From: Haloferax sulfurifontis ATCC BAA-897
Lineage (GTDB): Archaea; Halobacteriota; Halobacteria; Halobacteriales; Haloferacaceae
Reading direction: 5' to 3'
Length of the DNA: 60,961 nucleotides
Assembly (NCBI RefSeq): GCF_000337835.1
Contig: NZ_AOLM01000026.1
Location: forward strand, 1 to 60,961
Both the position numbers and the translations under genes were made by a program. Below, one piece after another: positions 6,312-21,812 of the stretch (position 1 is its first letter; each line of letters opens with the position of its first letter). A model generated the notes under the pieces. That model did not search any database. It was not told where the DNA came from and saw nothing but the letters and a program-made list of their open reading frames with translations.

Positions 6312-6323
6312 CGAACGTGTTCG
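6312..6323 (+). promoter_or_regulatory. NarO-like palindrome CGAACGTGTTCG
   Basis: A near-perfect 12-bp dyad whose end lies 40 nt before the DUF2249 start at 6364. It is the first of the series that marks the denitrification island. Confidence 0.75.
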
Positions 6324-6363
6324 GGGTAACCGACTCGGCGGTCCCCCGTGAGGTACGACACGT

Positions 6364-6597
6364 ATGGCAGACACCATCCTCGACGTCCGCGACCTCCCGC
6401 CGGCGGAGCGCCATCCGAAGATTCACGCCGCCTTCGACGACCTCGACGCCGGCGAGTCGCTGACGATTCTCAACGACCACGACCCGAAACCGCTGTTCTA
6501 CGAGATGCAAGCGGAAGTCGACGCCTTCGACGCCGACAACTACGCGGTCGAGAAGCAGGGCCCGAACGAGTTCGCGGCGACCTTCCCGAAGCGGTAG
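6364..6597 (+). CDS. DUF2249 domain protein (TusA/SirA-like fold)
   Basis: Seventy-seven residues, essentially one DUF2249 domain: ILDVRDLPPAERHPKI, then ESLTILNDHDPKPLFYEM, then a C-terminal strand with FAATFPKR. DUF2249 proteins are small, TusA-like in fold, and often found beside anaerobic respiration and NO-response genes. Their biochemical role is not settled, but a part in sulfur or metal-cofactor handling or in NO response is suspected. The NarO-like box ends 40 nt upstream with no leader needed. It is followed after 111 bp by the NnrS-like gene, which has its own box. A second DUF2249 gene lies at 12428. Confidence 0.85.
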   Translation: MADTILDVRDLPPAERHPKIHAAFDDLDAGESLTILNDHDPKPLFYEMQAEVDAFDADNYAVEKQGPNEFAATFPKR

Positions 6598-6658
6598 CGT
6601 CGCGGCCGCGGGTCGTGACCGCGGTGCCGACCCGGCTCCTCCGTTTCTCCATCCTCGG

Positions 6659-6670
6659 CGAATATGTTCG
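6659..6670 (+). promoter_or_regulatory. NarO-like palindrome CGAATATGTTCG
   Basis: One base off the perfect dyad. Its end is 38 nt before the ATG at 6709. It also favours that start over the in-frame ATG at 6664, which would lie inside the box. Confidence 0.75.
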
Positions 6671-6708
6671 GCGTCACCGGTAGGACTTCGCGCCGCGCTA
6701 GTCCGCGT

Positions 6709-8049
6709 ATGAGCGCCATTCCCGCCGAGGTCGACACGGCCCGACAGCCACCGATGACGATTCCGCTCCGGCACTTCGTCGTCGCGCTCGGCTTCCTCAC
6801 GGCCGCGGTGGGCCTCCGAGTCGCCCTCGCCGCCGGCGTCGTCGCCGGCACCGCTCGTCTCGCGCACGTCCATCTCCTGCTCGCGGGGTGGGTCTGCGTC
6901 ACCATCATGGGCGCGATGACGCAGTTCGTCCCGGTCTGGTCCGGCGTCGACCTCTACTCGCGGCGGCTCGCGACCGCCCAACTGTGGGCCGTCGGCGTCG
7001 GCCTCGGCGGCCTCGCGGCGTGTTTCCTCCTCGGCGCGTTCGCGTGGCTTCCCGTCTTCGGTGCCGCCGCGCTCCTCGGCTTCTGGACGTTCGCCTACAA
7101 CGTCGCGCGCACGCTCTCCCGACTCGACGACTCCGACGTGACCGAGCGCCACTTCGGCCTCGCACTCGGCTTTCTCGCGGTCGCCACCGCGCTCGGGTTC
7201 CTGCTCGCAGTGGACTTCACGCGCCCGCTTTTCGCCGGCGTCGGCGCGACGCACGGGAGCGTCCGCGCGGCCCACGTCACGCTCGCCGTCTTCGGCGTCG
7301 TCGTGACGACCGTGGTCGGCGCGCTCTACCAACTCGCGACGATGTTCACCCAGACGAAGCTCCGCGGCGTCGACGTGTGGCTCCGGCGCGTCGAAGAAGT
7401 CGGCTACCCGCCGGGCGTCGTCGCCCTCGCCGGCGGCCGACTCGTCTCCGACCCGACGCTCGCGCGGGTCGGCGGCGCGCTCGTGACCCTCTCGCTTCTC
7501 GGCGTCGCCGCGATTCTCGCCCATCGCCTCGTCGAGTCGGCGGTCGACTGGACGCCCATGCTCACCCGGTACGCCGTCGCGGCCGTCGCGCTCGCCGGGT
7601 GGGCAGTCCTGACGCTTCCCGCGTGGCTCGCGGCCCCGCTGGCCGGCGACCGCCTGTTCGGCGCGCCCGGGACCGGCTCGCTGTTCCGCCTCGGCTTCGT
7701 CGGCTTCGTCGTGCTCGGGACGCTCTACCACGTCGTCCCCTTCATCGTCTGGGTCCACCGCTACAGCGACCGCCTCGGCCTCGAACCCGTGCCGATGCTC
7801 GACGACCTCTACAGCGCTCGCCTCGCTCGCCTCGATTTGGGCCTCGTCGTCTCGGGCGTCGCCGCCGTCGTCGCGAGCGACCTCGTCGGTCTCTCGACGG
7901 CCGTCGAGACGGCGGGCTGGGCGCTCGTGCTCGTCGGTGTCGCGGCGTTCGCCGCGAACCTCCTGCGAGTCATCTGGGTCCACAGCCCGCAGTCGTTGGT
8001 CGGCGGCGCGGCCGCATCGGCCGCCGATGCGGACGACAGCGCGGACTGA
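6709..8049 (+). CDS. Polytopic membrane protein, NnrS-like / heme-copper oxidase subunit I-like
   Basis: 446 residues with about 12 hydrophobic helices. Conserved-looking histidines lie in membrane segments: LAHVHLLLAGWV (about residue 47), RAAHVTLAVFGV (about 188) and TLYHVVPFIVWVHRYSDRL (about 345-360). The pattern recalls NnrS and the related short relatives of cytochrome oxidase subunit I seen near denitrification genes. Such proteins are thought to bind heme/copper and to relieve NO stress. Exact activity is unknown, and I cannot place all the copper and heme ligands of a true oxidase, so catalysis is not claimed. It is NarO-box controlled by position, and the start ATG at 6709 fits the box spacing. 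Confidence 0.7.
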   Translation: MSAIPAEVDTARQPPMTIPLRHFVVALGFLTAAVGLRVALAAGVVAGTARLAHVHLLLAGWVCVTIMGAMTQFVPVWSGVDLYSRRLATAQLWAVGVGLGGLAACFLLGAFAWLPVFGAAALLGFWTFAYNVARTLSRLDDSDVTERHFGLALGFLAVATALGFLLAVDFTRPLFAGVGATHGSVRAAHVTLAVFGVVVTTVVGALYQLATMFTQTKLRGVDVWLRRVEEVGYPPGVVALAGGRLVSDPTLARVGGALVTLSLLGVAAILAHRLVESAVDWTPMLTRYAVAAVALAGWAVLTLPAWLAAPLAGDRLFGAPGTGSLFRLGFVGFVVLGTLYHVVPFIVWVHRYSDRLGLEPVPMLDDLYSARLARLDLGLVVSGVAAVVASDLVGLSTAVETAGWALVLVGVAAFAANLLRVIWVHSPQSLVGGAAASAADADDSAD

Positions 8050-8081
8050 GTCAGTGCGTCGGAGACGCGTCTCGAACTCTC

Positions 8082-8381
8082 TCACATCCCGAGCAGTTCG
8101 GGCGCGAGAAAGAGAAGTGCGAGCAGGCTCGTTAAGACGAGAATCGACGCGAGACGCAGGATGCCGGTCGCTCGTCGCCGGTTGTTCGGAAGCGATTCCG
8201 CGATTCCGGACAGGGCGATCCCGGCTATCATGAACAGGAGCCAGCCGCCAGACATGGACTGTTCCACGACGGCGTACTGCCAGTAGAGCCCCGACATGAC
8301 GAGCGCGCTACAGAGCTGGACGAGTGCAAATGGGCCGCCGGAGGGCTCGCTGAACACGATTTCGTTCACGATGGAGGGCAT
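8082..8381 (-). CDS. Small hypothetical membrane protein, three TM helices
   Basis: Ninety-nine residues from the ATG at 8381. The upstream in-frame extension to 8429 lies in the region before a box and looks non-coding. Three hydrophobic spans are visible (ALVQLCSALVMSGLYW, WLLFMIAGIALSGIA and LASILVLTSLLALLFLAPELL). It is convergent with the NnrS-like gene, with only 32 bp between their ends. No family is recognised. The size and topology resemble other haloarchaeal proteins of three helices, such as the one at 4379, but sequence similarity is not obvious. Confidence 0.6.
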   Translation of the reverse strand: MPSIVNEIVFSEPSGGPFALVQLCSALVMSGLYWQYAVVEQSMSGGWLLFMIAGIALSGIAESLPNNRRRATGILRLASILVLTSLLALLFLAPELLGM

Positions 8382-8451
8382 CGAACGCGTCGACTCCCGG
8401 GAGGGAAAAATAACTCCTGCATTCGCCACCTCGTTGGCCGCGCTCTACCTC

Positions 8452-8463
8452 CGAACACGTTCG
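8452..8463 (+). promoter_or_regulatory. NarO-like palindrome CGAACACGTTCG
   Basis: Perfect dyad ending 41 nt before the cupin gene start at 8505. Confidence 0.78.
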
Positions 8464-8504
8464 GCCGCAGGCTTACCGACCGCGCGGCCGACAGTTCACC
8501 CGCA

Positions 8505-8810
8505 ATGGTAGAACACGCCGCGCTCGCCGACCTCCCGCCGGTGATGCACGCGCCCGTCTTCGAGACCGACCGCCCGAAAACCGTCAGGCTCCGCCTCGAA
8601 GCCGGCGACGAGGTGCCGGCGCACTCCCACCCCGGCTTCGACATCGTCTTCCACGTCGTCGATGGCCGGATGGAACTCACCCTCGACGGCGAGACGCACG
8701 AGGTCGCGGCGGGAGAGCTGATGCGGTTCGGCGGCGACCGCGATATCTCGCCGCGCGCGCCGGTCGACTGTAGCGCGGTGCTCGTGTTCGCGCCGACCGC
8801 CGACGACTGA
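8505..8810 (+). CDS. Small cupin-domain protein
   Basis: A 101-residue single cupin barrel. Motif 1 is present as VPAHSHPGFDIVFHVVDGRMEL (His47, His49 and the acidic/His positions after them) and motif 2 as GELMRFGGDRDISPRAP. Motif 2 lacks the usual His, having Asp/Arg at the position of the last metal ligand, so the metal site may be incomplete. Small cupins range from metal-dependent dioxygenases to sensors, so no reaction is assigned. The NarO-like box 41 nt upstream makes it a member of the anaerobic regulon, and its neighbours suggest a role in NO or nitrite metabolism (inference). Confidence 0.8.
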   Translation: MVEHAALADLPPVMHAPVFETDRPKTVRLRLEAGDEVPAHSHPGFDIVFHVVDGRMELTLDGETHEVAAGELMRFGGDRDISPRAPVDCSAVLVFAPTADD

Positions 8811-8843
8811 ACCGCAGGGCCAACCGGCGGGCGAACGCCCACC

Positions 8844-9458
8844 TTACTCCGGCTCGCTCGACAGCCGCTCCAGTGCCGCCTCGAACTCCTCGGACAGCGA
8901 GACCGCACCCGACTCGTCGCCGTCGCGCTCACCCGTCGGCGACCCGGTATCGGGGACCGAGTCGTCCGTCTCCGCCTGCGCGTCAGCGGGGCCCATCGCG
9001 TCGAGTTCCGCGTTGATGGCGTCGGCCTGCTGGTGCATCGGTGCGACGCGGACCCGGACGCGGTCGTAGTCGTGGCGGTCGGCGAGGCCGTTCCACGCCC
9101 GGAACGCGCCGACGGTGAGCGTCTTCGACTGCGGGCAGAACGGCGTCGTCGGCGTGAACTCCGCGAGAAGGACCGACGGGTCGTTCCGGTCCTCCGCGTA
9201 GCGGAAGCCGGCGTCCGGGTGGCGTCGGTCGAGGTTCAGCCGCGCGAGGTTGTAGCCGAACGTCACGTCGTAGACGCCCCGCGCTTCGAACAGGTCGCGG
9301 GCGACCCGGTGGACGGCGACGTGGTCGTCGCCGTCGAGGACGCGGTGGCCGTCGAGAAAGGCGTCCGGGTCGGGCAGGTGCTCGGGGACGAACTGGTCGA
9401 TATCGTCGAAGCGGTCGGCCCGCGACCCGCCGCCGAACAGGGACGGAATGTCTGGCAT
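8844..9458 (-). CDS. Conserved haloarchaeal protein with a DUF59/MIP18-like cysteine motif
   Basis: 204 residues from the ATG at 9458; the longer frame to 9503 runs into the NarO-like box. A central region reads VYDVTFGYNLARLNLD, then LLAEFTPTTPFCPQSK, then DYDRVRVRVAPMHQQADAINAEL. The T-P-T-T-P-x-C-P element resembles the cysteine motif of DUF59/MIP18/PaaD-type Fe-S assembly factors. The C-terminal 60 residues are acidic, probably disordered, and end in a short helix. If the likeness is right, it could help mature Fe-S or metal centres for anaerobic enzymes. The assignment is from motif reading only, and a plain hypothetical protein remains possible. Confidence 0.6.
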   Translation of the reverse strand: MPDIPSLFGGGSRADRFDDIDQFVPEHLPDPDAFLDGHRVLDGDDHVAVHRVARDLFEARGVYDVTFGYNLARLNLDRRHPDAGFRYAEDRNDPSVLLAEFTPTTPFCPQSKTLTVGAFRAWNGLADRHDYDRVRVRVAPMHQQADAINAELDAMGPADAQAETDDSVPDTGSPTGERDGDESGAVSLSEEFEAALERLSSEPE

Positions 9459-9496
9459 AGTCCGAGGTAGGGTCGCCGCGGGCGTAGGCCCACCTC

Positions 9497-9508
9497 CGAA
9501 CACGTTCG
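9497..9508 (-). promoter_or_regulatory. NarO-like palindrome for the DUF59-like gene
   Basis: CGAACACGTTCG. The gap to the start at 9458 on the minus strand is 38 nt, the same as for several other genes of the island. Confidence 0.78.
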
Positions 9509-9618
9509 ACTCACCGTTCGGGGTGCGGCGCTCCGGCGGGGTTTAGATGCAGGTCGGTGGTGCGGTTGAAATCCGTAGTCAGTGGTAGTTTGTCGAGTCC
9601 GGATAGTTTGCCGAGTCC

Positions 9619-9644
9619 GTGCTGAATAGCGTGCGCGAGTCGGT
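9619..9644. repeat. Dispersed repeat copy B, left of the low-GC gene
   Basis: GTGCTGAATA-gcgt-GCGCGAGTCGGT. It matches copy A at 3984 in both arms, and copy C at 10325 in 21 of 26 positions with the same orientation and spacing. Copies B and C bracket the low-GC gene at 9668-10252. Confidence 0.5.
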
Positions 9645-9667
9645 CGTCCGAATCAGTAGATTGAGGG

Positions 9668-10252
9668 CTATTCTTCGATCGTGAGTGTATAGCTCCACTC
9701 AAACGCTTCCCATGCCGTGTCCGCTCTAGCTTTCGGCACAAATGATTCGGTAAAGCGGTGTTCCTCTGCGGGAAGACAGCCCATATCTTCGGGGCGATTG
9801 CTCACCCACTTGTCCATCGTGGCCTCCAATATTTCCCGCTCCGGGTAATGCAGTACGGTGTATTCGGTCTGAATGCACTCTCCCGCATCGAGTGACTGCC
9901 ATCTAAGCACGTCAGGAAGAACGAAGTGAACGAGATTCGTCTGCCAGCAACCCTCGACCGGGCGGTCCGGAATAATCTGTTCGTCTGTTCCAAAGGCGTG
10001 GTTCTGTACCTGACGGTCACTCGGAATGAGAACAAGCCATCCTTGGCCATCACTCCAAATACTGGAGTACGGCTGGATTGAGCCGAAGCCAACCGTTTGT
10101 GCTTCGGGGGAAAGGTTCTCAAATGAACTCCGAATCTGGGCAGGTGCATCGGATGAGAAATCCCGTAGCTTCTCAACGCTGAGCTGGAAGGGTTCCTTGC
10201 TGGGTTGAGAGCCTTCAGCAACCGTGATACGGGGGTAGCGCCCAGAAGCCAT
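9668..10252 (-). CDS. Hypothetical protein, low GC
   Basis: 194 residues from the ATG at 10252; GTTACTT (rc of 10276-10282) lies about 27 bp upstream as a TATA box, so I prefer this over the TTG at 10276. The protein is soluble, without signal peptide or membrane segment, and contains YSSIWSDGQGWLVLIPSD and a cysteine pair about 50 residues apart. I do not recognise a family. The gene is clearly poorer in GC and uses more A/T-ending codons than its neighbours. It breaks the denitrification island and lies between two direct repeats (9619 and 10325), which points to insertion by transfer. Confidence 0.6.
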   Translation of the reverse strand: MASGRYPRITVAEGSQPSKEPFQLSVEKLRDFSSDAPAQIRSSFENLSPEAQTVGFGSIQPYSSIWSDGQGWLVLIPSDRQVQNHAFGTDEQIIPDRPVEGCWQTNLVHFVLPDVLRWQSLDAGECIQTEYTVLHYPEREILEATMDKWVSNRPEDMGCLPAEEHRFTESFVPKARADTAWEAFEWSYTLTIEE

Positions 10253-10887: not shown

Positions 10888-11967
10888 CTACTGCGGGTCA
10901 GGGTCGGGGTCGAATATCTCGAGGTCCTCCGGGCCCTCGGCGCGGACGACCGCCATACAGCCCTTGCGGACGACGCGGGACAGCGAGTGGTCGACGAGCT
11001 TGAAGTCGCCGGGGACGGGCGAGCTCATCGTCGCGATGGTCGTGCTCCCCGGCGGCACCTGCCGCGTCTGGATGTGGGTCTGCGGCTCGGTCGTCAGCGA
11101 CCCCTCGGGATAGAGCGTCTCCCAGACGCTCCCGATGGGGTGGAAGCTACTGGAGAGGTTCGGTCCGCCGTCGACGAAGTACACCCGGACCGTCTCGCCG
11201 GTGCCGACCGTCGCGGCCGGTCCCCGGCCGTCGGGCGTCCACGCGTACTTCTCGCCGTTCATGAGGACGTACGTCGGCTCCTCGTTCCGCATGGCCTCGT
11301 AGTCGAATGCGTGCTGGCCCTCCTCGCCGGCGTCCTTGTCGGTGTAAAGTTCGTGCTGGCCGAGGTATATCTCGTGGTCGACCTCCGGCAGTCCCTCTGG
11401 CGGCTCGACGAGGATGAGGCCGAACATCCCGGCGCTGATGTGCATGTCCATGTTCGGCACGGCGCAGTGGTAGATGTACGCGCCGGGATAGGTCGCCTTG
11501 AACCGCAGGTGCGCCGTCTCGCCGGGGTTCGTCATCGTCGCTTCCGCGCCCCCGCCGGGGCCGGCGACGGCGTGGAAGTCGACGTTGTGCGGCATGGTGT
11601 TCTCCTCGGGGTTCTCGAACGTCAGGTTCACCGTGTCTCCCTGCCGAACGCGGACGAGCGGGCCGGGCACCTGCCCGTTGTACGTCGTGTAGGTGAACGT
11701 CACGCCGTCTTCGACCTCCGCGGTCACCTCCTCCGGCCGGAGCGTCACGTCGACCTCCGCGGGCTCGCTCCGGTCGATGGGGCCCGGGATGTCCGTCGGG
11801 CCGGCCGCGACTTGGTCGACCAGGTTCGTCGAACCCTGCCGTGTCGGTTCCCCCGTCTCGTCGAGCGACTGCGCGGTCGTCGGTGCCTCGGTCGCACAGC
11901 CGGCGAGCGAGGCGGCGCCGCCGAGTCCGAGCCACTGGAGCGTCCGCCGCCGAGTCGTAGATAGCAT
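10888..11967 (-). CDS. nirK: Copper-containing nitrite reductase
   Basis: 359 residues from the ATG at 11967, which is preceded by GGAGGGAG, a good ribosome binding site. The N-terminus has a Tat motif (TTRRRTLQWLG) and a lipobox LAGC (Cys24), so it is exported folded and probably lipid-anchored. Copper ligands are visible: His127-x-x-Asp130-x-His132, His167-Cys168, His176 and Met181, then SSFHPIGSVW and LVDHSL for the second-domain His residues. It reduces nitrite to NO outside the membrane, with electrons probably from the nearby halocyanins. The 5' region holds an imperfect NarO-like box, a separate perfect dyad and a TATA box. Confidence 0.95.
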   Translation of the reverse strand: MLSTTRRRTLQWLGLGGAASLAGCATEAPTTAQSLDETGEPTRQGSTNLVDQVAAGPTDIPGPIDRSEPAEVDVTLRPEEVTAEVEDGVTFTYTTYNGQVPGPLVRVRQGDTVNLTFENPEENTMPHNVDFHAVAGPGGGAEATMTNPGETAHLRFKATYPGAYIYHCAVPNMDMHISAGMFGLILVEPPEGLPEVDHEIYLGQHELYTDKDAGEEGQHAFDYEAMRNEEPTYVLMNGEKYAWTPDGRGPAATVGTGETVRVYFVDGGPNLSSSFHPIGSVWETLYPEGSLTTEPQTHIQTRQVPPGSTTIATMSSPVPGDFKLVDHSLSRVVRKGCMAVVRAEGPEDLEIFDPDPDPQ

Positions 11968-12012: not shown

Positions 12013-12029
12013 CGGACAATGGTTGTCCG
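12013..12029. promoter_or_regulatory. Perfect dyad CGGACAA-tgg-TTGTCCG upstream of the nirK TATA box
   Basis: A 7-3-7 inverted repeat directly abutting the TATA box and unlike the NarO-type palindrome. It is a candidate operator for a second regulator of nirK. Confidence 0.55.
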
Positions 12030-12045: not shown

Positions 12046-12057
12046 CGAACATCTTCG
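12046..12057 (-). promoter_or_regulatory. Imperfect NarO-like box of nirK
   Basis: CGAACATCTTCG has one arm mismatched (GTTCG to CTTCG). It lies 78 nt from the nirK start and about 33 bp from the TATA box, much farther than in the other promoters. Confidence 0.55.
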
Positions 12058-12406: not shown

Positions 12407-12430
12407 TGAGTCGGCGCAGTCGCCGACTCA
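12407..12430 (-). terminator. Stem-loop at the end of the DUF2249 gene
   Basis: TGAGTCGGCG and CGCCGACTCA form a perfect 10-bp stem with a CAGT loop, overlapping the stop codon of the gene at 12428. There is no clear T-run after it. Confidence 0.5.
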
Positions 12431-12688
12431 GGGCACCCAGATTGCGGTGGCGACGCCGTCGTCTCGTTCGGCGGAGCAGTAGGCGAACCCCCGGTCGTCG
12501 AGCTTCGGGTAGAGGAACTTCGGCTCGCGGTCGTTGAGCTGGACGAACACGGTCTCGCCGTCGAGGTCGGCGAGGCGGTTCATCGTCTCCGTGAGCGGTT
12601 CCGGCGGCGGCAACTCCCGCACGTCGAGGAAGTCGACCGCTCGGTCGGTCGGTGCGTCGAGTCTGTCGAGGTACGCCTCGTGCTCCAT
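12428..12688 (-). CDS. DUF2249 domain protein, second copy
   Basis: 86 residues from the ATG at 12688. The core reads DFLDVRELPPPEPLTETMNRL, then DGETVFVQLNDREPKFLYPKLDDRGF, which matches the DUF2249 pattern of the protein at 6364 (VRDLPP..., LNDHDPKPLFYEM). A single Cys (AYCSAE) is not shared by the first copy. It is divergently transcribed from the radical SAM gene, and each has a NarO-like box. The upstream in-frame stretch to 12835 crosses both boxes and is not translated in my view. Function is unknown; the domain recurs beside NO and anaerobic metabolism genes. Confidence 0.82.
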   Translation of the reverse strand: MEHEAYLDRLDAPTDRAVDFLDVRELPPPEPLTETMNRLADLDGETVFVQLNDREPKFLYPKLDDRGFAYCSAERDDGVATAIWVP

Positions 12689-12726: not shown

Positions 12727-12738
12727 CGAACGTGTTCG
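12727..12738 (-). promoter_or_regulatory. NarO-like palindrome CGAACGTGTTCG of the second DUF2249 gene
   Basis: Its edge is 38 nt from the start at 12688. It forms a pair with the box at 12763; the two are 24 bp apart. Confidence 0.78.
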
Positions 12739-12762: not shown

Positions 12763-12774
12763 CGAACACGTTCG
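12763..12774 (+). promoter_or_regulatory. NarO-like palindrome CGAACACGTTCG of the radical SAM gene
   Basis: It ends 45 nt before the ATG at 12820, slightly more than in other promoters of the set. Confidence 0.75.
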
Positions 12775-12819: not shown

Positions 12820-13992
12820 ATGTCTCGACCGCCACACGTCGACACCGATACGAACGCGGGAAGTGACGCGGACGCGCCGCCGACGGCGACCGCCCCGGCT
12901 GACCCGTCGAGCATCGACACCTCGCGGCGGCCGTTCGTCCTCGTCTGGGAGGTGACGCAGGCGTGCGACCTCGCGTGTGACCACTGCCGGGCGGACGCGA
13001 CGCCCGCGCGACACCCCGACGAACTGACCTCCGCGGAGGGAACGCGCCTGCTGGAACAGGCCCGCGAGTTCGGCCCCGGACAGCTCGTCGTCCTCTCCGG
13101 CGGCGACCCGCTGGCCCGCCCCGACCTCGTGGACCTCGTCGAGTACGGCACCGACCTCGGCCTCCGGATGACGCTCACCCCGAGCGGAACGTCGTCGCTG
13201 ACGCCCGAAACGGTCGCCGACCTCGCCGACGCGGGCGTCAGGCGCATGGCGCTCAGTCTCGACGGCGCGACGGCGGCGTCGCACGACGCCTTTCGAGGCG
13301 AGGACGGGAGCTTCGAACAGACCGTCGCGGCCGCCCGCGCGGCCCGCGAGGCCGGCCTCCCGCTCCAGATAAACACGACCGTCTGCGCCGAGACGGTCGC
13401 CGAACTCCCCGCGCTCTGCGACCTCGTGGCCGACCTCGGGGCGGTGCTCTGGTCGGTGTTCTTCCTCGTTCCCGTCGGGCGCGGACGCGTCCTCGACCCG
13501 ATATCTCCCGAGCGCGCCGAGCGCGTCATGGAGTGGCTGACCGAGGTGAGCGAGGACGCTCCCTTCGGCGTCAAGACGACCGAAGCGCCTCACTACCGGC
13601 GGGTCGCCATCCAGCGCCGGCGGGACGCGAGCGACGCCCCCCCGACCGACGGCATCGGCCGCCGGCTCGGCATCACCGCGGGCGACGGGTTCGCCTTCGT
13701 CAGCCACACCGGCGAGCTGTTCCCGTCGGGCTTTCTCCCCGCGTCCGCCGGCAACGTCCGCGACGGCGGGCTCGTCGAGCGATACCGCGAGAGCGACCTC
13801 TTTCGGTCGCTCCGGGACCGCGACGCCCTCGGCGGGAAGTGCGGCGCGTGCGAGTTCCGCCACGTCTGCGGCGGCAGTCGCTCGCGGGCGTACGCCCACA
13901 CCGGCGACCCGCTGGCCAGCGACCCGCTCTGTGCGTACGTCCCCGCCGAATACGACGGCCCGATGCCGACGACTCGGTCGGCGGGCGACTGA
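12820..13992 (+). CDS. ahbD: Radical SAM/SPASM enzyme, AhbD/NirJ-like (candidate heme synthase)
   Basis: 390 residues from the ATG at 12820. The radical SAM cluster is C49-x3-C53-x2-C56 (TQACDLACDHC), followed by LVVLSGGDPLARPDL for SAM binding. A C-terminal SPASM region (GKCGACEFRHVCGG and a late DPLCAY Cys) binds auxiliary Fe-S clusters. AhbD decarboxylates Fe-coproporphyrin III to heme in the oxygen-independent siroheme route used by archaea; NirJ-type relatives act on heme d1. NirK here is a copper enzyme, so heme d1 is not needed, while NorB needs heme, which favours AhbD. The alternative is a peptide maturase acting on the CGCGG protein at 17789. The symbol is given from memory of Haloferax annotation. 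Confidence 0.75.
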   Translation: MSRPPHVDTDTNAGSDADAPPTATAPADPSSIDTSRRPFVLVWEVTQACDLACDHCRADATPARHPDELTSAEGTRLLEQAREFGPGQLVVLSGGDPLARPDLVDLVEYGTDLGLRMTLTPSGTSSLTPETVADLADAGVRRMALSLDGATAASHDAFRGEDGSFEQTVAAARAAREAGLPLQINTTVCAETVAELPALCDLVADLGAVLWSVFFLVPVGRGRVLDPISPERAERVMEWLTEVSEDAPFGVKTTEAPHYRRVAIQRRRDASDAPPTDGIGRRLGITAGDGFAFVSHTGELFPSGFLPASAGNVRDGGLVERYRESDLFRSLRDRDALGGKCGACEFRHVCGGSRSRAYAHTGDPLASDPLCAYVPAEYDGPMPTTRSAGD

Positions 13993-14025: not shown

Positions 14026-14037
14026 CGAACACGTTCG
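14026..14037 (+). promoter_or_regulatory. NarO-like palindrome CGAACACGTTCG of the halocyanin gene
   Basis: It ends 39 nt before the ATG at 14077. GATAAC immediately after it may act as a weak TATA element. Confidence 0.78.
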
Positions 14038-14076: not shown

Positions 14077-14631
14077 ATGACGCGCGACACAACCTTCACG
14101 AGACGGCGCTTTACGGCACTGACTGCGACGGCGGCGCTGTCGACGGCGCTCGCCGGCTGTTCCGGCTCCGGCGACGACGCCGCGAACGCGGCCGAAGCGG
14201 ACGGGGGCGGCGCGACGACCGCCGAATCGACCGCCGAATCCGGCGGCACGACCGGCGGCGACGACGGTTCCGGCGACGGGAGCGCCCCGCAATTCGACGG
14301 CTGGTTCGACAACGTCGACAACTACGACGGCGTCTCGGACGAGACCGGGAGTTCGACGGTGACGGTGACGGTGGGTGCGCAAGCCAACGGCGGGGCGTTC
14401 GGCTTCGGCCCGGCCGCCGTTCGCGTCTCACCGGGCACCACAGTCGTCTGGGAATGGAACGGCGAGGGCGGCTCGCACAACGTCGCCGCCGACGACGGCT
14501 CCTTCGAATCGGAGTTGGCGGGCAGTAGCGGCCACACGTTCGAACACACCTTCGAGGAGGCCGGGACGTACACCTACGCCTGCACCCCGCACGAGACGCT
14601 CGGGATGAAGGGCGCGGTCGTCGTCGAGTAG
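14077..14631 (+). CDS. Halocyanin (blue copper lipoprotein)
   Basis: 184 residues. It has a Tat signal (TRRRFTALT) and lipobox LAGC (Cys28), then an acidic/Ser/Gly linker and one plastocyanin-like domain (about 95-184). The copper ligands are visible as His134 (GGSHNV), Cys169 (YACTPHE), His172 and Met177. Halocyanins carry single electrons at the outer face of the membrane. Placed between the radical SAM gene and norB, and behind a NarO-like box, it is the likely electron donor to NirK. The start codon fits the box spacing. A T5 run just after the stop could end the transcript. Confidence 0.92.
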   Translation: MTRDTTFTRRRFTALTATAALSTALAGCSGSGDDAANAAEADGGGATTAESTAESGGTTGGDDGSGDGSAPQFDGWFDNVDNYDGVSDETGSSTVTVTVGAQANGGAFGFGPAAVRVSPGTTVVWEWNGEGGSHNVAADDGSFESELAGSSGHTFEHTFEEAGTYTYACTPHETLGMKGAVVVE

Positions 14632-15387: not shown

Positions 15388-17670
15388 TTAGTCGTCGCCC
15401 AAGATACCTTCGGCGACGGCCATGTCCTCGACGCTCGGGTCGTCGGCGGACTGCCGGAGGACGAACCGCTTTCTGACGAGGTCGGCCGCGTAGATGATCG
15501 TCCCGAGGATGATGAGCGTGTCGCCGGGGAGCCGCGCCCAGAACAGCGTCTGAATCAGCGGCTGGTCGTAGAAGGCGACGCTCCGCGCGGCGGCGTAGCT
15601 CCCGGTGAACGCCGTCTCCAACTGGAGGAAGCCGACCGGGAGGACGGAGACGAACACCATCAACACGAGGCCGACGTTCCAACACCAGAAGGCGGCGCGG
15701 AGCCACGAGCCGTCCCAGCGGTCGGCGTCGATGGAGAGCTGGAGCATGTAGGTGACCATGCCGAGCGCGAGGAAGCCGAACGCGCCGAACATCGCGGCGT
15801 GGGCGTGGCCGACCGTCAGGTAGGTCCCGTGTTCGTAGTAGTTGATGAGCGGGAGGTTGATGAAGAAGCCGAGCACGCCCGCGCCGACGAAGTTCCAGAC
15901 GCCGCTGGCGACGATGAACATGAACGGCAGGCGGTACGGGAACGACTCGCCCGACATCGCGCGGTACTGCCCGAGCGCCTCGTAGAGGATGAACACGAGC
16001 GGGATGAGTTCGAGCGTCGAGAACACGCTCCCGATGGGGACCCACATGTCGGGCATGCCGACCCACCAGTAGTGGTGCGAGACGCCGATGATGCCCGTCC
16101 CCATGACGAGAAGCGCCTGAAGCATGACCGCCTTCTCGGCGCTCCGGCGACTGAGGAGGTTCATCGACACCAGCGTCAGGCCGACGATGGCGACGATGAA
16201 GAACTCGAAGGCCCCTTCGACCCACATGTGGACGACCCACCAGCGCCAGAACTCCGTGACGGCGATGTTCGTCTCGGGGGTAAACAGGAAGCCCGCGGTA
16301 AACAGGAGGGCGATAGAGCCGCCGGCGTACAGAATCATGTGCGCCAGCCCGTACGGCGGCTCCTTGTCGAGAAGCGGCTTCAGGCCGCGGACGGCCAGCC
16401 CCGCCCAGATGAGGAAGCCGGCGAGGATGCCGAACTGCCAGAGCTTCCCGACTTCGAGGTATTCGAGCCCTTCGTTGCCGAGAATCCACCACAGCGAGCC
16501 GTCGATGTAGCCGTTCGCGCCCAGCCAGATGCCCGACAGGCCGCCGACCACGACGACGACGATAGCGCCGAGGAGGACGTTGATGTACGTCGACTGCTTC
16601 GGCGGCTCGTAGCCGGTCAGAAGCGGGGGGAGGAACAGCCCCGCGCCGAGCCACGTCGCGGCGATCCAGAGGATGCCGAGGTCGATGTGCCACGTCTTGG
16701 CGATGGCGAACGGGAGCAGTTGCAGGATGGGCACGCCGAATACCGACTCGACGCCGAAGAAGCCGGCGCGCTCGATGTAGAAGTGCGCGAGCAGGCCGCC
16801 CAACAGCACCTGCGCCAAGAACAACCCGGCGGCGACCGGGATGAACCGGAGCGCCGCCCGCTGGCTCGGGAAGACGCTCACGTCACCGGGTTCGGGCACC
16901 GCGATGTCCTCGGCCGACGGCTCGGGGAGTTCGACCGACTTGTACAGCCAGATGCCGAGGCCCGCGCCCGCGACGAGGAGCACCATGGCGACGACGCTCC
17001 ACGTCATCGAGGCGGCGGTGGCGTCGTTCCCCGCGCCGGGCTGGTACGGCCAGTCGTTCGTGTACGAGTGGGTGCCGCCGGGGCGGTCGGTGTGGGAGAA
17101 CCACGCCGTCCACATGGCGAAGTCCGCGAACGCCCGCGCCTCCTCCTCGGAGTCGATCATGTTCGCGGGGACGCCGCGCTCGTGGTCGCCCTCGTGATAG
17201 CGCTCGACGTACTCCTGGCGGACCTGCTCGTGGGCGTACACCTCGGCCGCGGTGTACCGAATCGCGCCGCCCTCGTAGCTGTCGTCGAGGTCGGATTTCA
17301 CCACGTCGGCGACGGCGGCTTGCTCGGCGGAGTCGAGTTGGTCGTAGGTCTCACCGTACCGCTCTTGGGCGTAGTAGTTCCGCATGAACCGGACTTTCGA
17401 GTCCAGCGCGTCTGCGGTGTAGTCCGCCCCGTAGTACGCGCCGTTGCCCAGTATCGACCCGTGGTTCATCAGGCCGTCTCGCTGGAACACCGTCTTTCCC
17501 TCTCGAATCGCGTCGCCGCTGACGACGACGTCGCCGTCGGGTCCGACCACCTCGTCGGGGATGGGCGGGGCCTCCTGATAGGCGAACCACGCGCCCGCAC
17601 CCATCACGGCGAGGTTGAAGACGAACACGACGACGATTGCCTTCGCGATGGTCTTGCGTTGAATCTCCAT
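15388..17670 (-). CDS. norB: Quinol-dependent nitric oxide reductase (qNor)
   Basis: 760 residues, the single-subunit length of qNor, which is longer than the NorB of cNor. After a first membrane helix, a hydrophilic outer domain (about 35-220) includes the GKTVFQRDGLMNHGSILGNGAYYG segment typical of the family. About 12 helices follow. HMWVEGAFE (about 482), SHHYWWVGMP (about 532) and VGHAHAAMFG (about 622) hold the heme b3 and non-heme iron histidines and the family glutamates. It reduces 2 NO to N2O with electrons from quinol, removing the product of NirK. The promoter has CTATAG at 17694-17699, about 27 bp upstream, and a NarO-like box farther out. Confidence 0.95.
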   Translation of the reverse strand: MEIQRKTIAKAIVVVFVFNLAVMGAGAWFAYQEAPPIPDEVVGPDGDVVVSGDAIREGKTVFQRDGLMNHGSILGNGAYYGADYTADALDSKVRFMRNYYAQERYGETYDQLDSAEQAAVADVVKSDLDDSYEGGAIRYTAAEVYAHEQVRQEYVERYHEGDHERGVPANMIDSEEEARAFADFAMWTAWFSHTDRPGGTHSYTNDWPYQPGAGNDATAASMTWSVVAMVLLVAGAGLGIWLYKSVELPEPSAEDIAVPEPGDVSVFPSQRAALRFIPVAAGLFLAQVLLGGLLAHFYIERAGFFGVESVFGVPILQLLPFAIAKTWHIDLGILWIAATWLGAGLFLPPLLTGYEPPKQSTYINVLLGAIVVVVVGGLSGIWLGANGYIDGSLWWILGNEGLEYLEVGKLWQFGILAGFLIWAGLAVRGLKPLLDKEPPYGLAHMILYAGGSIALLFTAGFLFTPETNIAVTEFWRWWVVHMWVEGAFEFFIVAIVGLTLVSMNLLSRRSAEKAVMLQALLVMGTGIIGVSHHYWWVGMPDMWVPIGSVFSTLELIPLVFILYEALGQYRAMSGESFPYRLPFMFIVASGVWNFVGAGVLGFFINLPLINYYEHGTYLTVGHAHAAMFGAFGFLALGMVTYMLQLSIDADRWDGSWLRAAFWCWNVGLVLMVFVSVLPVGFLQLETAFTGSYAAARSVAFYDQPLIQTLFWARLPGDTLIILGTIIYAADLVRKRFVLRQSADDPSVEDMAVAEGILGDD

Positions 17671-17699: not shown

Positions 17700-17736
17700 G
17701 CTCCACACGCCGCTTCCCGGCCTCGCACAGCCCGGA

Positions 17737-17748
17737 CGAACATGTTCG
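17737..17748. promoter_or_regulatory. NarO-like palindrome CGAACATGTTCG shared by norB and the CGCGG gene
   Basis: A perfect dyad. It is 40 nt from the + strand start at 17789, the canonical spacing, and 66 nt from the norB start on the minus strand. Confidence 0.8.
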
Positions 17749-17788: not shown

Positions 17789-18124
17789 ATGACGACCGAC
17801 TCGCGCCCCGCCGACCGCGACCGCGACCACGACCGCGAAACGCCCGACTCGGCGACCGACCGCGTCCACGACACCTCGTGGTCCGCGAACCTCGAACTCC
17901 CGCGGCACGCCGCCGACCGGAACCTCGTGATTTCGGAGGCCGTCGCCGCGGTCGAACACACCACCGCCGGCCACCACGTCAACCTCGTCACCCACGGCGA
18001 CCACGGCCACCCGGAGACGTACCTGTACGACGCGCTCGCAGAGCGGCTCGGCGAAGACGTGGCGTACGAGTACGTCGAGCGATGCGGCTGTGGCGGCCAC
18101 GTGACGCGGGTGTACGTGGAGTAG
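17789..18124 (+). CDS. CGCGG-motif protein (putative radical-SAM-modified peptide or small redox protein)
   Basis: 111 residues. The first 30 are charged and probably disordered (Asp/Arg repeats). A folded part follows, with ADRNLVISEAVAAVEHTTAGHHVNLVTHGDHGHPETYLYDALAERLGE, rich in His. It ends in the motif C99-G-C101-G-G just before HVTRVYVE. From memory, such CGCGG C-termini are annotated in haloarchaea as radical-SAM-modified RiPPs; I could not check this. The NarO-like box at the canonical 40 nt shows anaerobic control, and a SPASM-type radical SAM enzyme lies 4 kb upstream. The cysteines could equally bind a metal. Function is unproved. Confidence 0.72.
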   Translation: MTTDSRPADRDRDHDRETPDSATDRVHDTSWSANLELPRHAADRNLVISEAVAAVEHTTAGHHVNLVTHGDHGHPETYLYDALAERLGEDVAYEYVERCGCGGHVTRVYVE

Positions 18125-18185: not shown

Positions 18186-18209
18186 CCGGGGAACGCGGAT
18201 GACTCACCT

Positions 18210-18407
18210 ATGGCCTCGCAACTCGTTTTGGCCCTGCTGGCAGGCGTCTTCGCCGGAGCCCTGTTCGGCCTCATAGAAACGCCGATTCCGGCCCCACCCA
18301 ACCTCGCCGGGATTCTGGGTATCGTCGGCATCTACCTCGGCTACAAGGGAGTCCAGCGGTGGGGGTTCCACGTCGATATCTCGGGGGTGCTCGCGTCGCT
18401 GTTCTGA
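18210..18407 (+). CDS. XapX (DUF1427) domain small membrane protein
   Basis: 65 residues with two hydrophobic helices separated by the signature TPIPAPPNLAGILGIVGIYLGYKGV, which is diagnostic of the XapX domain. XapX proteins are short membrane proteins often encoded near nucleoside or aromatic transport genes in bacteria, but in haloarchaea they are scattered and of unknown role. A TATA box at the usual spacing and no NarO-like box suggest constitutive expression. The gene follows the CGCGG gene by 85 bp. Confidence 0.8.
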   Translation: MASQLVLALLAGVFAGALFGLIETPIPAPPNLAGILGIVGIYLGYKGVQRWGFHVDISGVLASLF

Positions 18408-18553
18408 ACACGCCACGCGAGAAAACGGAGTCGTCCGGCCCCGGAAACTCCACACACCCCCGCAGACGACTTACGCGTTCTCTTCTTTCGGACACGTCTC
18501 GCCCGCCGAGGACGGTTGCGGCGTTTGGGCGCTCGCGGCGAGACGGTTCCCAG

Positions 18554-19174
18554 TTATCCCGACGAATCGGGCGTGTCCGCGGTTCCGTCGTCGGCTTCGG
18601 CGAAGAACTCGAACGCTAGGTCACCATCGAGGACGTGCGTGTGCTCGAACGTCCCCGTCTCGACGAGTTCCACGGTACTGTCGACGACGAGTCTGCGGGC
18701 CGAGTCCGGCCATTCGGTGACCGTGAGGCCCATGAACGCGGTTTCGTCGGCGAGTTCGCCGAACCGATGGACTTCGACGACCGCGGCCGCCCCGTCTTGG
18801 AACAGCGACACGGACGGGTGGGGGCTGTGACCGGCCTCGAATGGCCCCCGTAGCGAGAGTTTCGGCGGGGACCCGTCGCCGTCGGGGGCCGCGAACCGCT
18901 GTGTGAGCGACCGAAGTTCGGTGTCGCGAGAGTGTGAAATCGAGACGGCGAGCGGCCTCGGGAGGGGTCCGGACGTGGGGTCGACGCCCACGGTGGCGAG
19001 GTCTCCGTCGTCTCCGTCTCCGTCGAACTGGAGGTACATTCCCCTGTCTCGGGGGTTGTCGTCGCGCTCGACCGCCGGGTCGGTGTGTTCGGTTCGCGGA
19101 CTGAGCGAGCTACATCCCGCGGTCAGGGTGGAGGCGGCGGTCAGGGCGGACGCGAGGAACGCGCGGCGGCGCAT
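18554..19174 (-). CDS. Tat-exported lipoprotein, hypothetical
   Basis: 206 residues from the ATG at 19174. The N-terminus MRRRAFLASALTAASTLTAGC has a Tat motif and lipobox, so the mature protein begins at Cys21 and is lipid-anchored outside the cell. The rest is acidic, with DGDGDDGD and a beta-rich domain (VAVISHS-like strands, SVSLFQDGAAAVVEVHRFG, FMGLTVTEW). I do not recognise the domain. It lies between the XapX gene and the two-domain halocyanin on the halocyanin strand, 152 bp downstream of it, without a NarO-like box of its own. Confidence 0.72.
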   Translation of the reverse strand: MRRRAFLASALTAASTLTAGCSSLSPRTEHTDPAVERDDNPRDRGMYLQFDGDGDDGDLATVGVDPTSGPLPRPLAVSISHSRDTELRSLTQRFAAPDGDGSPPKLSLRGPFEAGHSPHPSVSLFQDGAAAVVEVHRFGELADETAFMGLTVTEWPDSARRLVVDSTVELVETGTFEHTHVLDGDLAFEFFAEADDGTADTPDSSG

Positions 19175-19326
19175 AGCTGTCAACACGTTGGTAGCGATAA
19201 CAATGTTCTGGACCGACGACAGCGCCGGGAATATTCGACACCATCGCGACGGGTTGTCGCCGTCGTCTCGTCACGACCGCGTCGCAGTCGCCCAGTCTTT
19301 GAAAGCGTTGCCCGACCGTGGGTGAC

Positions 19327-20433
19327 CTACTCCGAGTTCTCCTTCGGATACGTCTCGCCCGCCGACTCGCCGCCCTCGCCTGTGAGCCACATGAACGCGC
19401 CGAACAGCGCGGGCGACGCCAGCATCGCGCCGAACGTCCCGGCCAGCGCGATGCCGCCGAGGCGCTCCGTCTCGGGGTCGCCGAACGGCTCGGCGACCTG
19501 CGCGTTCGACCCGCCCTCGTCGTCGGTGACGACGACCGCGCCCTTCATCCCGAGCGTCTCGTGCGGGGTGCAGGCGTAGGTGTACGTCCCGGCCTCCTCG
19601 AACGTGTGTTCGAACGTGTGGTCGCCGGCGCTGACGAGGTCGGACTCGAAGCTCCCGTCCTCGGCGACGACGTTGTGCGACCCGCCCTCGCCGGTCCACG
19701 TCCACGCGACGGTCGTCCCCTTCGAGACGCGAACCGCCGCGGGACCGAAGCCGAACGCGCCGCCGTTGGCCTGCGCCCCGACGTCGACCGTCACGCGTTG
19801 GAGGCCGGTCTGCGCCTCGACGCCGTCGAAGTTCGAGGTGTCTTCGAACCACGCGTCGAGGTCGGCGTCCCCCTCGCCGGCGCTGTCTGTGGCCGCCTCC
19901 GACTCGTTTTCGGCGTCCGAGTCGGTCGAGTCGGCCGCCTCGGTCGCGGTCGCGCCGCCGGCGTCGCCGACGACGATTGCGCCTTTCATCCCGAGCGTCT
20001 CGTGCGGCGTACAGACGTACTTGTAGACGCCCGCCGCGTCGAACGTCCGCTCGAAGGTGTGGCCCGCGTCGCCGACGAGGTCGGACTCGAAGCTCCCGTC
20101 TTCGGCCGCGACGTTGTGCGACCCGCCCTTCCCGGACCACTCCCAGACGACCGTCGTCCCGGGGTCGACGCGCACGCCGGCCGGGCCGAAGCCGAACGCG
20201 CCGCCGTTGGCCTCCGCACCGACTGTCACCGTCACCGTCGAACTCCCCGTCTTGTCCACCACGCCGTCGTAGTTCGAGGTCTGTGCGAACCACGAATCGA
20301 GGTCGGTCCCCGACTGCGCCCGCGCGGCGTCGGCGGCGCTTCCCAGCGCGGTCGCGGAGACGGCCGCGCCGCCGAGGAGTCGAAGTACGGTTCGCCGGCC
20401 GAGCGTCGGAGATGTGGTGTCGTTCGGGTTCAT
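19327..20433 (-). CDS. Two-domain halocyanin with C-terminal membrane anchor
   Basis: 368 residues. A Tat signal (GRRTVLRLLGG) is followed by ADAARAQSG, a signal peptidase I-like site without lipobox. Two halocyanin domains (about 45-155 and 190-310) each show GGSHNV, then C-T-P-H-E-T-L-G-M, giving His, Cys, His and Met copper ligands. An acidic/Ala/Thr linker (about 157-190) joins them, and a C-terminal helix (about 328-350) anchors the protein. Two copper centres in one chain suggest electron relay at the membrane surface, between quinol oxidation and NirK or the multicopper oxidase (inference). The nearest NarO-like box is 102 nt upstream, so shared control with the divergent regulator is possible. 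Confidence 0.9.
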   Translation of the reverse strand: MNPNDTTSPTLGRRTVLRLLGGAAVSATALGSAADAARAQSGTDLDSWFAQTSNYDGVVDKTGSSTVTVTVGAEANGGAFGFGPAGVRVDPGTTVVWEWSGKGGSHNVAAEDGSFESDLVGDAGHTFERTFDAAGVYKYVCTPHETLGMKGAIVVGDAGGATATEAADSTDSDAENESEAATDSAGEGDADLDAWFEDTSNFDGVEAQTGLQRVTVDVGAQANGGAFGFGPAAVRVSKGTTVAWTWTGEGGSHNVVAEDGSFESDLVSAGDHTFEHTFEEAGTYTYACTPHETLGMKGAVVVTDDEGGSNAQVAEPFGDPETERLGGIALAGTFGAMLASPALFGAFMWLTGEGGESAGETYPKENSE

Positions 20434-20535
20434 GATTGAAGGTGGCGAGGCGGCGGTCCCGCCCCGCTCGACACTCGACGGTCGGTGGTCCGGTGAAAAA
20501 CCCGCCTCGGTGGTTCCCGAAACGCGGCCGGAGGG

Positions 20536-20547
20536 CGAACATGTTCG
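20536..20547 (+). promoter_or_regulatory. NarO-like palindrome CGAACATGTTCG of the HTH_10 gene
   Basis: A perfect dyad ending 42 nt before the ATG at 20590. ACTATCT follows closely as a possible TATA element. It could also act on the divergent halocyanin gene 102 nt away. Confidence 0.78.
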
Positions 20548-20589
20548 GAACTATCTTTGTGCGGCGGGGACGACTTCGTTTCACTACCG

Positions 20590-21228
20590 ATGCCTCGGGC
20601 AACACTCTCCATCACGCTCCCCGAGCAGGTCTGGGTTTCCGACCTCTCGGGGCGGTATCCGGACGCCGAGTTCACCGTCCTCGCGGCGATGCCGGCCGAC
20701 GAGACGGGCGTCGGCCTCGTCGAGATACGAGCGGCCGACATCGAGCCGGTCGTCACCACCATCGACGAGTACGACTCGGTCGTCTCGGTGACGATTCTCG
20801 AAGCGCAACCGGAGCGCGCGCTCGTGCAGTTCGAGACGACCGAGCCGCTTTTGATTCTCACGCTCAGCGAGGTGGGCATCCCGCTGGAACTGCCAATCAC
20901 CATCGTCGACGGCGAGGTGACAGTCGAGGTGACCGCGCCGCGCGAGAACCTCTCGGAGCTGGGCGACCAGCTCGCGCAGTTCGGCATCCCGTTCGACCTC
21001 GTCTCCATCCACCAGTCGATAGACACGGAGTCGCTTCTCACCGACGACCAGTACGCCCTCCTCGAAACGGCCGTCGCCGAGGGCTACTACGACACGCCGC
21101 GGACGTGCACGCTCACCGAACTCGCCGAGGCCGTGGGGCTGGCGAAGTCGACGACGAGCGAGAAGCTCCACCGCGCCGAGGGCAAAGTGATGAAGGCGTT
21201 TCTCGCGCGGGACGACGCGGCGGTTTAG
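20590..21228 (+). CDS. Bat/DmsR-type HTH_10 transcriptional regulator
   Basis: 212 residues from the ATG at 20590; an upstream in-frame ATG at 20557 would lie right after the box. The N-terminal 150 residues form an uncharacterised sensory part without an obvious PAS or GAF motif. The C-terminus is HTH_10: LLTDDQYALLETAVAEGYYDTPRTCTLTELAEAVGLAKSTTSEKLHRAE, the bacterio-opsin activator type. Relatives such as Bat and DmsR regulate phototrophy and anaerobic DMSO respiration in haloarchaea. With its own NarO-like box, it looks like a second-tier regulator of the island. No Cys cluster that could sense oxygen is visible. Confidence 0.85.
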   Translation: MPRATLSITLPEQVWVSDLSGRYPDAEFTVLAAMPADETGVGLVEIRAADIEPVVTTIDEYDSVVSVTILEAQPERALVQFETTEPLLILTLSEVGIPLELPITIVDGEVTVEVTAPRENLSELGDQLAQFGIPFDLVSIHQSIDTESLLTDDQYALLETAVAEGYYDTPRTCTLTELAEAVGLAKSTTSEKLHRAEGKVMKAFLARDDAAV

Positions 21229-21250
21229 TTCTCGGTCGTCAGTTTAGTCT

Positions 21251-21619
21251 TCAGTCGTCGGTCTGCTCGCCGACGGCCGACCACAGCGTCGACAGTTGGT
21301 CCGAGGCCGACCGCGACGGCGACGACACCGAAATCGAGAGGTCGCCCGGTTCGCGCGTCACGACCACCTCCTCGAAGCCGACTGCGTAGCGGGCGGCGTC
21401 GCGGCCGCGGTCGCGTTTTTCGAGGAGTCCCGCCTCGACCATCTGTTCGAGTTTCCGGTACACCGTCGACCGCGGGAGGTCGCACGCGGCGGCGATGTCC
21501 GAGGCGGTCATCGGGCCGTCGAGTTCCTTGAGAACGGCCCGGCACTGCGGACTGGTGAGGGCGTGGAACACCGTCTCGAAGTCCGGTTCGAGCGCGTCTG
21601 AGAGTGGGTTGGTCGACAT
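21251..21619 (-). CDS. Winged-helix (ArsR/HTH_20-type) regulator
   Basis: 122 residues from the ATG at 21619. A single winged helix is seen: DFETVFHALTSPQCRAVLKELDGPMTASDIAAACDLPRSTVYRKLEQMVEAGLLEKRDRG, then the wing and GFEEVVVTREPGDLSISVS. This is the common one-domain haloarchaeal regulator. Two Cys (PQC, AAC) are present, but no metal-binding cluster. The gene is convergent with the HTH_10 gene (22 bp between stops) and divergent from the multicopper oxidase. Its product may act on that promoter (inference). There is no NarO-like box at the usual spacing. Confidence 0.85.
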   Translation of the reverse strand: MSTNPLSDALEPDFETVFHALTSPQCRAVLKELDGPMTASDIAAACDLPRSTVYRKLEQMVEAGLLEKRDRGRDAARYAVGFEEVVVTREPGDLSISVSSPSRSASDQLSTLWSAVGEQTDD

Positions 21620-21800
21620 CTGCGTGAGAGTGGGTTGGTCGGCGGCGACCCGCGCGCCGTCGGTTCGGCTCCCGATACTCCTCCGAGGCGTATGAAAGTC
21701 GCGGGGCACCAGCGTCGGGTCCGGTCGAACCGATGGCCGTCGATTCGGACTGGTACGCCCCGACTCGACCGTTTTTCGGCCCGGTACGTATCGACCTCGC

Positions 21801-21812
21801 CGAACATGTTCG
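21801..21812 (+). promoter_or_regulatory. NarO-like palindrome CGAACATGTTCG of the multicopper oxidase
   Basis: A perfect dyad that ends 67 nt before the ATG at 21880, a long spacing like that of norB (66 nt). Confidence 0.75.

Follow-up and report, generated by a model that had tools for sequence, protein, structure and literature searches.

Denitrification promoters of Haloferax mediterranei carry a semi-palindromic motif, CGAAYATDKTYG, and a 12.5-kb cluster of that species, comprising nirK, nor, halocyanins, DUF2249 genes and a bacterioopsin-like regulator gene, holds eight copies of it, with most genes up under denitrification (PMC10062603, PMC11218638). The core regulon is already published; the available parts of these accounts mention neither a 38-nt class of sites nor a second element, assign spacing no role and do not settle which protein binds. 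The counterpart described here lies in a 60,961-nt stretch, hereafter the window, of the 3.81-Mb genome of Haloferax sulfurifontis ATCC BAA-897 (contig NZ_AOLM01000026.1). There the dyad CGAAC-NN-GTTCG (dyad 1) precedes nirK, nor and accessory genes. The new parts are a two-slot spacing rule for dyad 1, a second dyad with targets of its own (dyad 2, GTTCYCA-N5-TGRGAAC), and, the least certain of the three, the predicted assignment of dyad 1 to a cysteine-free regulator encoded within the cluster, which is set apart from NarO as one candidate reader of the motif.

The core of dyad 1 is like that of the H. mediterranei motif. By reading, the CGAAYATDKTYG string is fitted here only by the AT-centred copies at 6659, 17737, 20536 and 21801; six other copies are AC- or GT-centred, and these six and the nirK copy are one base off the published string. 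The distances of the farther sites are also alike, with 66, 79 and 69 nt given for the H. mediterranei promoters norp, nirp and nosp, respectively, and 66 nt for nor and 76 nt for nirK in the window, so that the position ~ 66–79 nt before these two genes is found here as well.

Two other systems provide comparisons. The GvpE upstream activating sequence of gas vesicle promoters is a two-part activator site beside the transcription factor B recognition element (BRE), at a close distance that is essential; a 22-bp insertion beside the BRE abolishes activation (PMC4390858). The near class of dyad 1 sites described below would resemble it in position if these too adjoin the BRE, and the GvpE site differs in sequence and length (20 nt); the part of that account available describes no second operator of the kind proposed here, and GvpE resembles a leucine-zipper protein, whereas the window regulator is an HTH_10/BAT protein. 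NarO and DmsR (DmsR_N, PF24277) share with the window regulator an HTH_10 DNA-binding domain and a short chain without PAS or GAF domains. Neither DmsR_N nor the cysteine motif is present in the window regulator, and the operator in the promoters of its own family differs.

Sites of dyad 1 close to the ATG are designated class A. In class B, dyad 1 lies ~ 27 nt farther upstream and a second element occupies the near slot. With moderate confidence, and from sequence evidence, dyad 1 is proposed to be the operator of the cluster regulator, and class B promoters are proposed to combine dyad 1 with dyad 2, the latter read by a DmsR_N regulator. The wider proposal that such a two-operator promoter code governs haloarchaeal denitrification, with accessory genes answering one signal and reductases and copper carriers both, is more tentative.

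Dyad 1 and its spacing in the cluster and across haloarchaea

Eleven promoter copies of dyad 1 lie within 15.5 kb (6312–21812), nine exact and two with one mismatch, in agreement with the eleven sites over 15 kb of the original prediction. Gene starts are those predicted by the gene finder run in this analysis; a cruder open reading frame scan also gave overlapping frames, dropped by the gene finder, whose starts lie 35–47 nt from several of the sites. The sites and the genes central to the argument are:

6312..6323, plus strand: dyad 1, exact, class A, 40 nt before DUF2249 gene 6364–6597 (PF10006)
6563..6574, plus strand: exact dyad, centre GA, in DUF2249 coding sequence, judged chance
6659..6670, plus strand: dyad 1, one mismatch (CGAATATGTTCG), class A, 38 nt before 446-amino-acid membrane protein gene 6709–8049
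8452..8463, plus strand: dyad 1, exact, class A, 41 nt before cupin gene 8505–8810
9497..9508, minus strand: dyad 1, exact, class A, 38 nt before conserved 204-amino-acid protein gene 8844–9458
10888..11967, minus strand: nirK, copper nitrite reductase (TIGR02376)
12046..12057, minus strand: dyad 1, one mismatch (CGAACATCTTCG), class B, 76 nt before nirK
12727..12738, minus strand: dyad 1, exact, class A, 38 nt before DUF2249 gene 12428–12688
12763..12774, plus strand: dyad 1, exact, class A, 45 nt before radical SAM/SPASM gene
14026..14037, plus strand: dyad 1, exact, class A, 39 nt before halocyanin gene 14077–14631
15388..17670, minus strand: nor, nitric oxide reductase, NorB type (PF22085, PF00115)
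17737..17748, no single strand: dyad 1, exact, divergent promoters; class A, 40 nt, for the CGCGG gene and class B, 66 nt, for nor
20536..20547, no single strand: dyad 1, exact, divergent promoters; class A, 42 nt, for the regulator and class B, 102 nt, for double halocyanin gene 19327–20433
20590..21228, plus strand: HTH_10/BAT-domain regulator, 212 amino acids, predicted binder of dyad 1
21801..21812, plus strand: dyad 1, exact, class B, 67 nt before multicopper oxidase gene 21880–23034
25486..25497, plus strand: exact dyad in predicted coding sequence 24702–25736, judged chance

The gaps at nine promoters (38, 38, 38, 39, 40, 40, 41, 42 and 45 nt) are as originally stated, and longer gaps separate dyad 1 from nor (66 nt), multicopper oxidase (67 nt), nirK (76 nt) and the double halocyanin (102 nt). 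The two copies within coding sequence, at 6563 and 25486, had not been listed before. The NN-centred search form CGAACNNGTTCG occurs 10 times in the 15,501-bp stretch, the copy at 6563 included, compared with 0.12 on average and at most 2 in 500 dinucleotide shuffles, which puts the copies far from chance. Throughout, the control was the reversed pattern. The whole genome has 43 CGAACNNGTTCG versus 1 for this control. The tighter form CGAAYRYRTTCG, fitted by every promoter copy but that of nirK, has 20 occurrences versus 0, 11 of them in the window and 10 in the cluster, where the density elsewhere in the genome would predict 0.04.

Nine CGAAYRYRTTCG sites lie outside the window, six in predicted coding sequences, one with its nearest gene start 288 nt away, and two spaced by the rule: 38 nt upstream of a ThiS-family (MoaD-like) gene (C24:82157) and 39 nt upstream of a truncated haemoglobin gene (C11:61703). 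Truncated haemoglobin/cyanoglobin is among the published motif genes of H. mediterranei (PMC10062603, PMC11218638). Among the 32 NN-centred sites outside the window one further site is rule-spaced (C25:21625, centre GG, 45 nt), and the gene behind it encodes an unrelated membrane protein. The idea that boxes of this spacing mark related genes came through the genome-wide scan mostly well.

Conservation was followed at three levels: 80 named nor loci of haloarchaea, 117 genomes of the order and 50 nor-bearing genomes picked from the 80 loci. The window nor protein is 97–98% identical to its counterparts in Haloferax massiliensis, H. denitrificans and H. marisrubri. The 80 loci contain 168 CGAAYRYRTTCG versus 1 for the control; 126 of these sites fall in the slots 36–46 and/or 60–82 nt, 8 in coding sequence only and 34 elsewhere, and the gaps peak at 37–42 nt (97 gaps, of which 50 are exactly 38 nt) and 62–68 nt (31 gaps). 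Class A dyads across haloarchaea end 37–42 nt before the ATG with a mode of 38, and dyad 1 followed by 37–42 nt and ATG matches 493 times in the 117 genomes versus 5 for the control. Genes for DUF2249, 446- and 204-amino-acid, cupin, CGCGG, radical SAM and regulator proteins have the exact dyad ~ 37–45 nt upstream, but not at all loci; the class A slot is occupied, for example, in 5/20 cupin, 7/15 CGCGG and 15/31 regulator matches. The initial dyad observation is right and more general than first stated, and the single regulon is supported by conservation in other haloarchaea. Its anaerobic nature draws support from H. mediterranei only, through RNA-seq of the counterpart cluster as far as reported in the part of that source available (PMC11218638).

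In class A promoters (72 de-duplicated of 97) a TATA-like block, a TATA box by prediction, follows dyad 1 at +10 to +12. Haloarchaeal promoters have a BRE and a TATA box, and 72% of H. volcanii protein transcripts are leaderless (PMC4983044). As H. volcanii transcripts are mostly leaderless, a dyad that ends 38 nt before the ATG would abut the BRE. By analogy with GvpE, an activator dimer on dyad 1, directly upstream of BRE/TATA, may recruit TFB/TBP if these mRNAs are leaderless. The TATA-like blocks are weak, as expected of activator-dependent promoters, which argues against dyad 1 being a repressor site whose protein would block access to BRE/TATA and be released on anaerobiosis. Such a site would account for a second exact dyad 4–9 nt before the start in 6/30 best-scoring regulator promoters (L175, L176, L184–L187) and 3 nt before it in 1/20 lower-scoring ones (L288), a position that would overlap the start site and block initiation, and that could give negative feedback. 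However, in the H. mediterranei results available, mutated boxes make the nos and nor promoters less active, not more (PMC10062603), and general repression through dyad 1 is considered very improbable.

Class B promoters and dyad 2

Promoters of nor, nirK, multicopper oxidase and halocyanin genes with dyad 1 at 60–108 nt were aligned on dyad 1 (48 de-duplicated of 71). The alignment reveals a second block, GGGAA at +19 to +23, with T at +8 and an AT-rich segment at +36 to +40. Information peaks at +8 and +19 to +23 reach 1.31 bits, compared with no value above 0.40 in 500 permutations of class B. As the class B promoter is shifted by ~ 27 nt, the second block occupies the slot that dyad 1 holds in class A. 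The corresponding elements of the window are half-sites:

12023..12028, minus strand: degenerate second-element half-site GGACAA, nirK promoter
17713..17718, minus strand: second-element half-site GGGAAG, nor promoter, 18 nt past dyad 1
20513..20518, minus strand: second-element half-site GGGAAC, double halocyanin promoter, 17 nt past dyad 1
21830..21835, plus strand: second-element half-site GGGAAC, multicopper oxidase promoter, 17 nt past dyad 1

Dyad 1 followed by 17–18 nt and GRGAAY matches 60 times in 37/117 genomes versus 0 for the control; in this genome just two sites match, both in the cluster, before the double halocyanin and the multicopper oxidase genes. Inspection of 35 rows from 30 loci assigned 22 to nirK (6), multicopper oxidase (6), halocyanin (4), SCO (3), nor (2) and molybdopterin oxidoreductase (1) genes, and two to probable cupredoxin lipoproteins, one just below the Pfam cut-off (L204) and one by likeness with no Pfam match (L206). 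The remaining rows comprise one uncharacterized lipoprotein, six without a gene call and four in coding sequence or remote from a gene. Many of the GRGAAY-pattern matches elsewhere contain a complete dyad 2.

Dyad 2 also occurs independently. In the 80 loci and the window it was found 14 times at one mismatch or fewer versus 0 for the control, and 30 times versus 4 at two mismatches; followed by 38–44 nt and ATG, it matches 42 times in 23/117 genomes versus 0. The target survey covered 36 rows from 30 loci, with cluster members named after the tested ones. Among the targets are two DmsR_N regulators, two TrpD-like genes, two sensors combining Protoglobin and methyl-accepting chemotaxis protein domains, and small membrane genes at the head of COX2/COX1 operons. 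A further eight rows lead to Htur_1727-like peptides, one of which adjoins a TIGR04053 radical SAM gene. Four of the 36 rows have an exact dyad 1 just upstream as well, and eight, including three of those four, precede open reading frames of at most 25 codons with no convincing gene.

In the mechanism proposed, dyad 1 alone at the BRE would switch on accessory and nitrosative-defence genes. In reductase and copper electron carrier genes dyad 1 is moved ~ 27 bp upstream, and the BRE slot would hold the operator of an oxygen regulator, so that both signals would be needed. A near-slot partner would be required because of the ~ 27 nt displacement and the distance dependence known from GvpE. Dyad 2 is predicted to be bound by a DmsR_N-type, NarO/DmsR-like regulator, and two inputs would consequently act on the catalytic genes but a single one on the accessory genes; the cues may be N-oxide or nitric oxide (NO)-linked for dyad 1 and low oxygen for dyad 2. 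A single spacing rule would then explain why some promoters might answer one signal and others two. This two-input model fits the physiology reported in the part of the literature available, in which the nitrite and nitric oxide reductases apparently require NO and hypoxia alone is no inducer (PMC7188791).

Several observations weigh against this view of class B. Strict GRGAAY at 15–24 nt is found in only 15/51 class B slots with an exact dyad 1 and 11/32 with a one-mismatch dyad, versus 6/102 and 1/37, respectively, in class A. No full dyad 2 was found in the class B promoters of the window, all four of which have 5–6 mismatches of 14, as is often the case elsewhere in the window; two of the four have an exact right half. 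In the H. mediterranei results available, the nir promoter did not respond significantly to box mutations, and no effect of this kind was seen for nar (PMC10062603).

A single protein might also serve both elements, the cluster regulator binding dyad 1 tightly and GGGAAC weakly, with class B representing one regulator at two sites. The half-sites of dyad 2 share GTTC/GAAC with dyad 1, the two centres are ~ 20 bp, or two helical turns, apart, and dyad 2 at two mismatches or fewer precedes 2/20 lower-scoring regulator matches, which also counts against separate readers. Nonetheless, dyad 2 occurs without dyad 1 before oxidase, sensor and DmsR_N genes, and at the same threshold precedes 0/30 best-scoring cluster-regulator matches, so that one reader for both dyads appears distinctly unlikely.

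The cluster regulator and the DmsR_N regulators

The regulator encoded at 20590–21228 would activate the cluster genes and its own gene through dyad 1. It matches PF04967 (HTH_10, 65.8 bits) and PF15915 (BAT, 35.5 bits), both above cut-off. DmsR_N was not matched at E 0.001, while L051, L057, L059, L233, L255 and L257 do match it. The regulator has no CxCx7C motif, its single cysteine lying inside the helix-turn-helix; an N-terminal CxCx7C is a feature of NarO. A match with at least 38% identity over most of the length is present in 50/50 nor-bearing genomes. In the 200 nt preceding the gene, the exact dyad 1 is present for 26/30 best-scoring matches (25 at 34–48 nt) and, pooled over all matches, for 34/50 (31 at 34–48 nt). 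The present genome has 32 HTH_10 matches, and the exact dyad was found upstream of none of the 27 paralogues scored (29 of 31 taken up). Class A matches average 5.1 per genome with a regulator match at E 1e-40 (n = 86) and 1.6 without (n = 31), or 5.4 versus 2.3 among genomes at least 90% complete, in a comparison that ignores phylogeny and genome size.

The original prediction matched dyad 1 to the element reported for NarO-controlled denitrification genes. On this reading NarO, a cysteine-bearing regulator of the DmsR_N type, would bind dyad 1 and place the entire cluster under oxygen control. The part of PMC10062603 available attributes to Hattori et al. 2016 a similar motif in haloarchaeal nar, nir, nor and nos promoters, and the genome encodes three HTH_10 proteins with CxCx7C (L051, L057 and L059), all DmsR_N. 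However, among 27 scored homologues of the DmsR_N protein L233, twelve of which have CxCx7C as called, only one has the exact dyad 1 upstream, compared with the 34/50 for the cluster regulator, which has neither DmsR_N nor CxCx7C. In addition, the motif works in H. mediterranei without a narO homologue, according to the available part of that account (PMC10062603). The attribution to NarO is thus regarded as unlikely. By contrast, dyad 2 at two mismatches or fewer precedes 10/27 of the L233 homologues versus 0/27 for the control, which is consistent with a DmsR_N protein as its reader.

The assignment of dyad 1 to the cluster regulator and of dyad 2 to a DmsR_N protein faces difficulties of its own. 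Autoregulation is common, and a dyad in the regulator's own promoter is no proof of binding. Across 31 sequences, no Cys or His that might sense NO directly is conserved in the N-terminal domain. The link between regulator and dyad weakens in more distant matches: the exact dyad 1 precedes only 8/20 lower-scoring matches (6 at 34–48 nt), nine of the 20 lack it even at one mismatch, and these matches may be paralogues. Five genomes (G054, G142, G150, G152 and G158) have 4–6 class A sites without a regulator match at E 1e-40, so another protein may bind there. Dyad 2 is found before only those 10/27 L233 homologues, not always at 40 nt, and before 0/3 DmsR_N homologues of this genome at two mismatches or fewer.

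Accessory genes and other features

The two remaining annotated members of the cluster are:

12820..13992, plus strand: radical SAM/SPASM protein (TIGR04053)
17789..18124, plus strand: CGCGG family putative radical SAM-modified, ribosomally synthesized and post-translationally modified peptide (TIGR03995)

The CGCGG label given earlier is confirmed by TIGR03995. The label NnrS-like was dropped for the 446-amino-acid membrane protein (6709–8049), which matches no Pfam family even at E 1. Likewise, the 204-amino-acid protein (8844–9458) matches no Pfam family at E 1 and no NCBIfam family; among the 80 nor loci it was matched 17 times, and in 10 of these cases dyad 1 lies at 38 nt. The ThiS/MoaD-like gene, picked by spacing alone here, adjoins nor in Halorubrum, Halegenticoccus and others, with the dyad at 37–38 nt. 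The DUF2249, cupin, 446- and 204-amino-acid, ThiS/MoaD-like and radical SAM/CGCGG genes are thereby tied to NO and nitrite reduction beyond neighbourhood, and the spacing rule offers a way of finding such genes in other haloarchaeal genomes.

Sulfur carriers usually end in a Gly-Gly tail. By reading, the ThiS/MoaD-like proteins of the regulon (L039:2534–2962 and the nor-adjacent L104, L127 and L148) end in FCC or FCL. The TIGR04053 and TIGR03995 genes, ~ 4 kb apart, have separate dyad 1 promoters. At L246 a TIGR04053 gene is divergent from an Htur_1727-like peptide gene with dyad 2 in between. These radical SAM/peptide gene sets under two operators are candidate maturase–peptide pairs. In the present genome, the DmsR_N protein L051 (G000 C3:98563; CxCx7C) is encoded near an Htur_1727-like gene, identified by reading, and a radical SAM-like gene. 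Finally, the plus strand of the window contains two very long predicted genes, 27893–33751 (1952 codons) and 41420–48115 (2231 codons).

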